Origin: Rhizomicrobium sp.
GTDB taxonomy: Bacteria; Pseudomonadota; Alphaproteobacteria; Micropepsales; Micropepsaceae
Assembly (NCBI GenBank): GCA_025451875.1
Contig: JANWJQ010000020.1
Coordinates: 28,998-92,997, forward strand
DNA: 64,000 nt
Reading direction: 5' to 3'
Below the pieces are notes generated by a model. It saw only the letters and a program-made list of their open reading frames with translations. It ran no database searches and was not told the origin of the DNA. Position numbers and translations under genes: made by a program. Below, in pieces: positions 35,511 to 45,058 of the stretch. Each line of letters starts with the position of its first letter. The first letter of the stretch is position 1.

Positions 35511-36134
35511 ATGCTGCGCGCATCGAAGCTCACCGTTGCCGACGGCGTGTTCCTCTGGCCCGGCGCCCTGGACATGAAAACTCAAAGCGATCTCGTCGCG
35601 GAGATTTTCCGGAAAATCGAAGATGCGCCGTTCTATCGGCCGGTCATGCCGGGATCGGGCAAAGCCTTCTCCGTGGAAGAGACGAATTTTGGTCCCCTCG
35701 GTTGGATATCCGACCGCAGCGGCTATCGCTACGAGCCTGCGCATCCGGTGACGAAGCGGCCATGGCCTTCGATTCCGAAACTGCTGCTGAATTTATGGGA
35801 CGAAGCGACGGGTTATGCCGCGCCGCCGGAGTGTTGCCTGGTCAATCTCTATCGCGGGCCGGCGAAGATGGGCCTTCATCAAGACAGGGACGAGGCGGCG
35901 CTCGGTGCGCCCGTGCTTTCCGTGTCGCTGGGCGAGGAGGCCGTCTTCCGGATTGGGGTCACCAGCCGCAAAGGGCCTACCAGGAGCGTGAAATTGGCTT
36001 CTGGCGACGTCCTGACTTTCGGAGGACCTGCCCGGCTGGCCTATCACGGGATCGACCGGGTCGTGGCCGGGACGTCTCGACTCATTCCGGGTGGGGGACG
36101 GATCAACCTGACCCTGCGTCGGATAACATCCTGA
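35511..36134 (+). CDS. AlkB-type 2OG-Fe(II) dioxygenase
   Basis: VNLYRGPAKMGLHQDRDE (HxD), SVSLGEEAVFRIG, YHGIDRVVAGTS..., INLTLRRI. Confidence 0.92.
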   Translation: MLRASKLTVADGVFLWPGALDMKTQSDLVAEIFRKIEDAPFYRPVMPGSGKAFSVEETNFGPLGWISDRSGYRYEPAHPVTKRPWPSIPKLLLNLWDEATGYAAPPECCLVNLYRGPAKMGLHQDRDEAALGAPVLSVSLGEEAVFRIGVTSRKGPTRSVKLASGDVLTFGGPARLAYHGIDRVVAGTSRLIPGGGRINLTLRRITS

Positions 36135-36141
36135 TCTTGCA

Positions 36142-36176
36142 AATAAAAAGACGCCCGATCGGGGGGCCGACCGGGC
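36142..36176 (-). terminator. Intrinsic terminator of the sRNA candidate
   Basis: GCCCGGTCGG-CCCC-CCGATCGGGC, then GTCTTTTTATTT on the minus strand. Confidence 0.75.
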
Positions 36177-36290
36177 GCCGTGCGCCGTTACGCGCGGGTA
36201 CCGGGAGGGGATGACCGGTACCTTCGAAGGGGCGACGCCCAGCGTGCGAGCGGGGGGGCAGTGCCTGCTGGACGATGATCGCCCTTCCGA
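36143..36290 (-). ncRNA. Candidate orphan small RNA (about 148 nt)
   Basis: Minus strand has -35/-10 TTGCAA-N17-TAGGTT (36296-36324), GAAGGGCGA/TCGCCCCTTC outer stem, CGTCCAGC/GCTGGGCG inner stem, GGTACCGG/CCGGTACC hairpin, then GC-rich terminator with TTTTTATTT. Confidence 0.6.
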
Positions 36291-36396
36291 GGACAAACCT
36301 ATGCACGAAAGCCACAGTTTGCAAGAATTCTTTTAAGAAATGGATTTAATGAAAATTTCCTAGTGACAGTCACTTTTTTGTGACGGGTATTTCGAA

Positions 36397-37053
36397 TCAA
36401 CCCTGACGTGCAGCAAGCCGTCGGTCCACAGCCGCTCGCCAGCTTTCGGCAAGCCCCGGCGCAGCCAGAACGTGTTTTAGAATTTCGTTGGGCGCCCGGC
36501 CCAGCACGGCAAAAAAGGCTTCGCGTACATTCGCCGCACCGCTGGAGTGGACGCGTTCCAGCCACGCATTCTCAGCCGGCGCAAAACCTTCCTGCGTCAC
36601 GCGCAGATAAAATCCGCAACGTCCTGCGAGCGTCATCAGCTGCGGCGCGTCGCTGCGCTGCGTGTGGATCGCGAATTTGAAACAGGGCGCGCGTGGTTGC
36701 GCGACTTCCATTTCCACATCGCCCCAGCGAAAGCGGTCACCGATGCAGATCTCCGTTTCATCGCCGGATTCGAGCGTGAGATTTTCGCCGAAGGTTCCTG
36801 GCGAACAGGGCAACTGGTGCTCGGTTTCCCACCACGGCCAATGGGAGGTGGGATAGGCATAGACCGCCTTGTCAAAACCGCCATGGACGGTGAGATCGGC
36901 CTGGCCGTCGCCGTCGATATTAAGCTTGTCCACGAAGACCCGGTCACGCCCCACCGGCCGCTTGCCAATCCCCGACCGGACTGGCTCGCCGTTCATCAAG
37001 GCCACAATCTTTGGCCGGCCGACATTGACGGACAGAATGCGAAGCCTCATCAC
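36397..37053 (-). CDS. MOSC domain protein (YiiM-like)
   Basis: VNIDGDGQADLTVHGGFDKAVYAYPTSHWPWWE, GTFGENLT, QPRAPCFKF. Confidence 0.92.
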   Translation of the reverse strand: MMRLRILSVNVGRPKIVALMNGEPVRSGIGKRPVGRDRVFVDKLNIDGDGQADLTVHGGFDKAVYAYPTSHWPWWETEHQLPCSPGTFGENLTLESGDETEICIGDRFRWGDVEMEVAQPRAPCFKFAIHTQRSDAPQLMTLAGRCGFYLRVTQEGFAPAENAWLERVHSSGAANVREAFFAVLGRAPNEILKHVLAAPGLAESWRAAVDRRLAARQG

Positions 37054-38527: not shown

Positions 38528-39916
38528 CTACATCTTCTTGTAGTCGCGTGCCGTGCTGTCGATCGCGGCTTTTAGCTTGACGATGATCTCTTCCACTTCG
38601 CTTTCCGAGATGATGAAGGGTGGCGCCAGAACCATCGTGTCGCGGATAGCGCGGCTCACGAGGCCGGAACTGAAGCAGTAATTGCGGCAATGCGTACCGA
38701 CATCGCCGATGTTCGGAAAGAACTCGCGCTTGCTCTTGTCGGCGACAAGCTCGATAGCGGCGATCAGGCCGATGCCGCGCACTTCGCCCACAATGGGATG
38801 GTCTTCGAAAGTCTCACGTAACCGGCGCTGCATATAGGGGCCGATGTCGTTCTTCACACGCGGCACCATTTTCTCGCGTTCCATCACTTCGAGATTCTTC
38901 AAAGCAACGGCGCTTGCTACCGGGTGGCCGGAATAGGTGTAGCCATGCACCAACTCTTCATTGGCATGCACGATGGCATCGCCCATGCGTTCGCCCAGCG
39001 AGATCGCGCTGATCGGCTGATAGCCCGACGATAGACCCTTCGCCATCGTCATGATGTCGGGTTTGATGCCGTAAGTGATGGAGCCGAACCATTCGCCCGT
39101 GCGTCCGAAGCCGGTGATGACTTCGTCGGTGTGCAGCAGCACGTCGTGCTTCTTGCAGATGCGGTTGATCTCTTCCCAGTACCCTGGGGGTGGGAAGATC
39201 ACACCACCCGCGCCATGCACAGGCTCGGCGGAAAAGGACGCGACATTGTCTGCGCCGAGCTCGAGAATCTTCTTCTCAAGTTGTTCGGCGACCTTGCGAC
39301 CGAGTTCTTCCGGCGTGATGTCGCCATAAGCCGCCTTTGAGCCATACCAGTAAGGTGTCGGCACTTTCTCGAAGCCCGGCAGCGGCAGGTCGAATTGCGG
39401 ATGCATCGGCGTAAGCCCGGAAAGCGACGCCGCAGCCATCGTCACGCCGTGATAGGCCAGCTCACGCGACAGATGGATCTTCTTGTGCGGCTTTTTCTTC
39501 AGGTTCCAGTAATAGCGGATCAGTTTCAGCGCGCTGTCATTGGCTTCGGAGCCGGAACTGGCGAACAGCACATGCTCATGGCCTTCCGGCAGGAGCTTGG
39601 CGAGCTTGTCGGCAAGTTCGGCGGTGTAGGGGTTCGTCGTCTTGAAGAAGTGGTTGTAGTAGGGGAGCGTCTTCAGCGCTTCATAGCCCGCCTCGGCCAG
39701 TTCCTTGTTGCCGTAGCCCACCTGCACGCACCAGAGGCCGGACATGCCGTCGATGATCTTGTGGCCTTCGGAATCCCATAGATAGACGCCATCGGCGCGG
39801 GTGATGACGCGCACGCCCTCCTTGTTGAGAGCGGCGGTGTCGGAGAAGGGATGGATATGATGGGCGGCGTCGATTGCCTGCCAATGTTTGGTGAGATTGT
39901 GTTCGCGCGTGTTCAT
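38528..39916 (-). CDS. Class III aminotransferase (putrescine-pyruvate / omega-amino acid type)
   Basis: LFASSGSEANDSALKL, LLHTDEVITGFGRTGEWF, MTMAKGLSSGYQPISA. Confidence 0.93.
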   Translation of the reverse strand: MNTREHNLTKHWQAIDAAHHIHPFSDTAALNKEGVRVITRADGVYLWDSEGHKIIDGMSGLWCVQVGYGNKELAEAGYEALKTLPYYNHFFKTTNPYTAELADKLAKLLPEGHEHVLFASSGSEANDSALKLIRYYWNLKKKPHKKIHLSRELAYHGVTMAAASLSGLTPMHPQFDLPLPGFEKVPTPYWYGSKAAYGDITPEELGRKVAEQLEKKILELGADNVASFSAEPVHGAGGVIFPPPGYWEEINRICKKHDVLLHTDEVITGFGRTGEWFGSITYGIKPDIMTMAKGLSSGYQPISAISLGERMGDAIVHANEELVHGYTYSGHPVASAVALKNLEVMEREKMVPRVKNDIGPYMQRRLRETFEDHPIVGEVRGIGLIAAIELVADKSKREFFPNIGDVGTHCRNYCFSSGLVSRAIRDTMVLAPPFIISESEVEEIIVKLKAAIDSTARDYKKM

Positions 39917-44464: not shown

Positions 44465-45058
44465 TCATTTGTGATTGATCTTGAAGGCGGATTCCGGAAG
44501 GTCCACGCCTTGCTGCACATTGTTGAGGCTGACGGTTGTGGGTAGCCCTTGCGCATCCACGATCGTCCACTGGCGCAGCTCCATCCCCGGATCGGTGAAG
44601 ACGATGGTGATGTTGCCCGTGGTATTGCGGTCGCTGGCGCGCGCGGTGAGGATCAACTGGCCGGGACTGTGCTGCACATTGGTGACGTTGGCGCTGCGTT
44701 TCAGATCCAGATGATCTGAGAGCAGAAGATTGAGCGGCGTGCCTGTCAGCGGATAGCGCGTCGCGGTGTTGAGCTTGGTGTTGTAAACCGCGATGCCGAT
44801 ACCGTCGCTGATGACCAACGTCGGATTGGGCGGCGTGTAGTCGAAGCGGATCTTTCCTGGCTTCAGAATATAGAACTTGCCCTGATCGACCTGGCCTTGC
44901 GCTCCGATCTGCGTGAAGCCGCCGCGCATCGTCTTGATCGAATTCAGATAAGCGCTGACGCGATCCAGATCGGCGCTTTGCTCAGCGGTCCATTTCGCCG
45001 CCTGGGCAGGTCCGGCTGCGGCAAGCGCAAGCAAGGCGGCAAGAATCAATCGGCGCAT
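44465..45058 (-). CDS. lolA: Outer-membrane lipoprotein carrier protein LolA
   Basis: Signal peptide; SAYLNSIKTMRGGFTQIGAQGQVDQGKFYILKPGKIRFDY. Confidence 0.92.
   Translation of the reverse strand: MRRLILAALLALAAAGPAQAAKWTAEQSADLDRVSAYLNSIKTMRGGFTQIGAQGQVDQGKFYILKPGKIRFDYTPPNPTLVISDGIGIAVYNTKLNTATRYPLTGTPLNLLLSDHLDLKRSANVTNVQHSPGQLILTARASDRNTTGNITIVFTDPGMELRQWTIVDAQGLPTTVSLNNVQQGVDLPESAFKINHK

Follow-up and report, generated by a model that had tools for sequence, protein, structure and literature searches.

A genuine small RNA (sRNA) gene in the genome of Rhizomicrobium sp. is confirmed by analysis of its sequence, and the evidence goes far beyond chance because the element is present in a single copy, is conserved throughout the order, and carries compensatory changes. 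The earlier note on this DNA called the sRNA an orphan; instead, it belongs to an old and widespread family with conserved synteny, the best-known probable relative of which is RusT from Caulobacter. It is fairly probable that the gene encodes the Micropepsaceae form of the sRNA from the lolA–xth locus (RusT in Caulobacter), a trans-acting RNA of approximately 150 nucleotides that has its own sigma70-like promoter and silences mRNAs through the loop of stem-loop 2 (SL2). The kind of molecule is already known, from RusT and from anti-Shine-Dalgarno sRNAs generally; what is new relative to the open-licence literature is the Rhizomicrobium member, the class-wide spread of the locus, and an enlarged form in which a second loop is also invariant. 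The collected loci suggest that RusT belongs, as a single branch, to a far broader sRNA family outside Rfam 15, in which the chromosomal address and the loops stay fixed and the stems evolve freely.

Architecture of the sRNA gene

The sRNA unit is located on the minus strand of the window, the whole stretch of 64,000 nucleotides that was analysed, and extends from approximately position 36289 to 36141, with promoter elements reaching up to position 36369. The minus-strand segment 36302–36141 contains a sigma70-like promoter followed by three hairpins and an intrinsic terminator, and lies in a gap of 262 nucleotides between the stop codons of two convergent genes. The predicted fold of 168 nucleotides of this strand has an energy of −82.6 kcal/mol, compared to −65.1 kcal/mol for shuffled sequences (z −4.1; 0 of 200 shuffles). 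The presumed transcript is approximately 150 nucleotides long, with its start deduced from the −10 box.

Stem-loop 1 (SL1, 36225–36289, minus strand) begins at the presumed transcript start and has a two-part stem with an internal loop; its arms CGGAAGGGCGA/TCGCCCCTTCG and CGTCCAGC/GCTGGGCG close the C-rich loop GCACTGCCCCCCCGCTCGC (36264–36246). It is followed by the perfect hairpin SL2, GGTACCGG/CCGGTACC (36197–36222, minus strand), the loop of which, TCATCCCCTC (36214–36205), is predicted to be unpaired in homologues and is the presumed seed. The small hairpin SL3, GCGC-GTAACG-GCGC (RNA GCGC-GUAACG-GCGC; 36182–36195, minus strand), separates SL2 from the terminator hairpin (36141–36177, minus strand), which has a CCCC loop and ends with the U-tract TTTTTATTT (36149–36141). 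The promoter TTGCAA-N17-TAGGTT, long SL1 stem, C-rich loop, perfect hairpin, and terminator reported in the earlier note are all present in the sequence. The interval given there, 36143–36290, leaves out the promoter, and the third small hairpin at 36195–36182 was missed. A small protein was rejected as the product of the gene: a closed ATG or GTG frame of at least 20 codons occurs in just 25 of the 81 homologue transcripts, and the median is 7 codons.

Promoter and upstream elements

The core promoter (36296–36324, minus strand) consists of the −35 box TTGCAA (36324–36319) and the −10 box TAGGTT (36301–36296), and the motif CTGTGGC-N5-TGCATA in its spacer (TTGnAAnnTGTGnC-N5-TGCATA) is kept across 62 homologues. 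The promoters of homologues have in common TTGnAA-cTGTGgC-TGCATA and an upstream CTGTCA element, which in the window reads CTGTCAC (36363–36369, minus strand) and is positioned approximately 45 nucleotides upstream of the −35 box. The conserved form of this possible regulator site, CTGTCA[TC], was found in 46 of the 62 family promoters in the order, mostly at an identical distance, and in 48 of 81 upstream regions, compared to 2.5 expected after shuffling. No promoter-defined regulon was detected in the genome; the extended promoter pattern occurs there once when up to two mismatches are allowed.

Motifs of several regulators were sought in the regions upstream of the homologues. The patterns GCAn9TGC and CAAn2-5TTG served as motifs of the NtrX type. 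Neither of the NtrX-type motifs, which are themselves tentative, nor those of ChvI and CcrM were enriched, and the EcfG/sigma-T motif was present in none of the 81 upstream regions. Control of the sRNA may differ from that in Caulobacter, because no published NtrX or ChvI motif and no EcfG motif is enriched. The sequence TTAA-n7-TTAA, of the CtrA type, occurs in four of the 81 upstream regions, compared to 0.3 expected.

Conservation of loops and covariation of stems

A covariance model built from 52 homologues (R1) detected the element in 92 of 96 genomes of the order, including 59 of the 60 of good quality, and 36 of 61 relatives gave a BLAST match. When named genomes were scanned for an exact pattern, the element was seen in Rhizomicrobium electricum DSM 21034 as well as in many metagenome-assembled genomes of Alphaproteobacteria. 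The check for compensatory changes suggested in the earlier note gave a positive result: 17 of 27 stem pairs have changes on both sides, and the covariation score of 0.395, compared to 0.168 for shuffled alignments, was reached by 0 of 500 shuffles and was lost when the partners were slid. Double compensatory changes affect all five counted pairs of SL2 and seven of the 11 terminator pairs. The native arms of SL1 fold with −27.3 kcal/mol, compared to −16.8 kcal/mol when arms are swapped between homologues, and 79 of 81 homologues are better than their swap mean; the penalty for swapping is 10.5 kcal/mol for SL1 and 3.7 kcal/mol for SL2.

By contrast to the drifting stems, the C-rich loops GCACUGCCCCCCCGCUCGC (SL1) and UCAUCCCCUCCC (SL2, in a loop with AUCCCCUCCC) are nearly invariant. 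Their predicted mean probability of being unpaired is 0.74 for the C-run of SL1 and 0.86 for the SL2 loop over 81 homologues; these had been picked by loop pattern, and the invariance of the loops was therefore judged on alignments made with the covariance model and with BLAST. Such a combination of constant loops and changing stems is characteristic of an RNA whose loops do the pairing or binding. Both the original call of a structured sRNA and the proposal that its C-rich loops face Shine-Dalgarno regions are supported by the structure, the covariation, and the invariant loops.

Distribution and synteny in Alphaproteobacteria

A search of 385 genomes of the class produced 93 matches with model R1 and 96 with R2, a second model based on a diverse alignment. 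About nine further alphaproteobacterial families contain clear homologues. Both loops are present in full-length relatives from f4, f91, f116, f121, f123, and f126; f9, f177, and f178 also exceed 50 bits with R2, and f39 has the synteny and a similar layout in common at a lower score. Covariance-model matches outside the class reach 35.8 bits, and scores below approximately 40 bits prove nothing by themselves. The assignment of weak members rests on synteny, because scores below approximately 36 bits are also found outside the class. The comparison with Rfam asked for in the earlier note identified no family at gathering cut-offs of Rfam 15 in the window and 40 locus slots. The permissive Rfam matches P15, to the terminator only, and TUG1 were attributed to chance, as was a match (L296) within a coding frame of a phage-like viral contig. 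Two genomes of family f9 (G044 and G178) contain a second, weaker copy (L265, L266), a possible paralogue with a GCAGC-ACCCCCC(C)TCCC-GCTGC hairpin and terminator, adjoining a weakly aminotransferase-like frame.

The common address of the sRNA, with all genes on one strand, is ftsK-lolA-[sRNA]-conserved 200-residue protein gene-xthA; an alternative address, also on the same strand, is class-III aminotransferase-[sRNA]-(conserved gene)-xthA. Once duplicates had been removed manually, 71 class loci of other families remained, and 52 of these had at least one marker neighbour within about 2 kb (ftsK-lolA, a class-III aminotransferase gene, xthA, or the conserved gene without a name), compared to none of seven non-class controls. 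Loci that score low and differ in their loops, among them L172, L174, L176, and L256, occupy the identical address, and nearly all low-scoring syntenic loci have YCCCC hairpin loops. Synteny offers a route to the RNA where sequence fails. Six syntenic loci of other families (L172, L174, L176, L177, L242, and L256) have in common a different layout, with a TCCCCTGCC-type loop, a GGCTCC...GGAGC third hairpin, and a C run in the terminator loop. In many families, the conserved gene that separates xthA from the sRNA (downstream of the sRNA at L109, L101, L116, L119, L158, L179, and others) encodes a protein of approximately 200 residues with an end resembling ...DHPFxxKFxLFExGRWPIGIxGxSFNLF; one form of it had no match in Pfam and another form had none in NCBIfam.

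In the window, the convergent neighbour of the sRNA encodes an AlkB-like 2OG-Fe(II) oxygenase (35511–36134, plus strand; Pfam PF13532, E 9.7e-54) that scores below the NCBIfam AlkB equivalog cut-offs. The gene upstream of the sRNA encodes a MOSC-domain protein (36397–37053, minus strand; PF03473, E 1.1e-28); it is not a constant neighbour and is missing beside many homologues. The class-III aminotransferase gene (38528–39916, minus strand; PF00202, E 1.4e-85), which many relatives have immediately upstream of the sRNA, and lolA (44465–45058, minus strand; PF03548, E 4.1e-33, and tblastn) are retained farther upstream. The lolA gene is the ancestral upstream neighbour, kept on the sRNA strand at a distance of 8 kb, and xthA is 26 kb from the sRNA. 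The locus looked like an orphan because MOSC, MATE, and other genes were interposed between the sRNA and the aminotransferase and lolA genes, with order and strand kept. The alkB/MOSC surroundings are a local arrangement; there are relatives without MOSC or alkB that have lolA, aminotransferase, and xthA. Genes for a DUF4403 protein and for a peptidase C26/glutamine amidotransferase occupy the segment 42166–44386, between lolA and the aminotransferase gene.

Probable relationship to RusT

RusT (CCNA_R0199) of C. crescentus is a 118-nucleotide sRNA encoded in the lolA–xth gap, with four stem-loops, the fourth of which is a terminator with poly-U (PMC11005374). Its SL2 region, nucleotides 45–57 including C53, is the seed that pairs with mRNAs, and Hfq is bound through SL3, published as the hairpin of nucleotides 72–87 (PMC11005374). 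RusT is repressed by NtrX, is induced by iron starvation or zinc, and silences mainly TonB-dependent receptors and OmpW; its authors described homologues in Caulobacteraceae (PMC11005374).

The Rhizomicrobium sRNA resembles RusT in its predicted fold of four stem-loops, the last being the terminator, in its conserved SL2 loop, and in the SL3 hairpin ahead of the terminator, which is nearly invariant in alignment A2; its homologues in several families have the lolA–xth address. By contrast, it is approximately 150 rather than 118 nucleotides long and has a large SL1 with an invariant poly-C loop, and the accessible text of the RusT report does not describe such a loop in SL1 (PMC11005374). The window sRNA is flanked by alkB and MOSC genes, with lolA and xthA only linked to it, and no NtrX-type motif was found enriched upstream of its homologues. 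Homology of the two RNAs is probable from position and architecture and not from direct sequence comparison.

Families f63 and f116 are presumably the closest sampled families to Caulobacter, with identities of 72–76% to C. crescentus CcrM, and on this identity alone f63 is probably Caulobacteraceae. Family f116 has RNAs strongly homologous to that of the window, encoded at ftsK-lolA-[sRNA]-gene-xthA. In f63, one RNA (L295) is encoded directly between lolA and xth and contains TTTCATCCCCTTCCCGG, resembling TCATCCCCTCCCGG of the window. Counted as a 118-mer ending at the U-run, it has ACGGATTTCATCC at nucleotides 45–57, with C at position 53, but folds differently; in another f63 locus (L294), nucleotides 72–87 form a hairpin as in the published SL3, and nucleotide 53 is two off. 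The agreement of f63 with the RusT numbering is suggestive of homology but is not proof. Family f37 was rejected as Caulobacter, since the RusT numbering does not fit and the CcrM identity is just 62–63%.

Comparison with other sRNA families

It is unlikely that the window RNA is an anti-Shine-Dalgarno sRNA without common descent with RusT, such as a remote offshoot of Rhizobiales ar7 (RF02342), whose locus type matches by coincidence. C-rich loops are carried by many alphaproteobacterial sRNAs (PMC3927594, PMC7143759), and ar7, which also has a C-rich hairpin loop (AUCCCCCUCUCC) and a C-rich terminator loop, aligns end to end with the window sRNA; in genome G044, one locus is matched by both ar7 and model R1. 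However, the alignment scores 16.7 bits against a gathering cut-off of 60 bits, which no genome reached among 61 relatives and 289 class genomes, and ar7 was rejected as the home family. Furthermore, lolA/xthA synteny on the same strand is conserved from family to family, which speaks for a single locus inherited by descent. The best ar7 match in G044 (L119/L091) is the locus hit by the new model at 47.7 bits, which raises the possibility that ar7 of Rhizobiales has branched off from the family of the window sRNA and diverged.

The sRNAs of the alphaR8 family (SisA-D, MmgR) also have an anti-Shine-Dalgarno single-stranded stretch and a terminator (PMC12559287, PMC7143759); however, the 10-mer that defines them, UUUCCUCCCU, is missing from the window sRNA and from the alignment, and they are short RNAs adjoining an FGase gene, unlike the window sRNA. 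GsrN has an exposed C-rich loop in common with it (PMC5869019) but differs in having a sigma-T/EcfG promoter, the motif of which was found in 0 of the 81 upstream regions, and a general-stress-response locus. RFMSmelA075/A099 are similar in having several hairpins with variable stems and fixed anti-Shine-Dalgarno loops (PMC3927594); however, they are multi-copy and have the loop motif CCUCCUCCC, which is missing from the single-copy window sRNA.

Proposed function

We infer transcription, pairing, Hfq binding, targets, an inducing signal, and NtrX control. In the proposed mechanism, rigid stems of freely varying sequence would hold out the C-rich loops, and the SL2 loop UCAUCCCCUCCC would base-pair with mRNAs at G-rich ribosome-binding regions, outer-membrane transporter mRNAs most likely among them, and block translation. 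Hfq would probably be contacted by SL3, which takes the position that the Hfq-binding hairpin has in RusT, and the terminator tail may complete the binding site. The SL1 poly-C loop could serve as a second, lineage-specific contact surface. The genome encodes 18 TonB-dependent receptors. Predicted pairing of the loops to the leaders of their genes is better than that to window genes (p 0.005 and 0.014), and it is not above that of shuffled seeds (21 and 29 of 100).

The RNA might instead be a sponge or decoy whose poly-C loops mainly bind a protein or a different RNA, in place of silencing mRNAs. The 19-nucleotide SL1 loop is conserved more rigidly than simple anti-Shine-Dalgarno pairing needs, and sRNA sponging through C-rich and G-rich partners is known in Caulobacter for CrfA with SisA-D (PMC12559287). 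Nevertheless, such a role is decidedly improbable, as RusT, the nearest characterized relative, pairs with mRNAs through SL2, and no partner was identified here. That the element is a structured terminator or REP-like repeat of two convergent genes, without its own function, is scarcely credible: it does sit between convergent genes and include a terminator, but its single copy refutes the repeat, a possibility named in the earlier note, and it has its own conserved promoter and invariant loops and is kept where the flanking genes differ.

A tentative evolutionary scheme is that one ancestral lolA–xth sRNA already existed early in Alphaproteobacteria and has persisted in much of the class with rewired loops. 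Its two-seed form in Micropepsaceae and several other families might have gained or kept an SL1 poly-C loop that is more tightly constrained than the mRNA seed and that would contact a conserved partner such as a protein, rRNA, or one fixed RNA. The collected homologues can be used for target prediction, and the second invariant loop is a feature open to testing. The perfect complement of the SL2 loop, GGGAGGGGAT, occurs at three sites in the genome, one of which is the sRNA gene itself.
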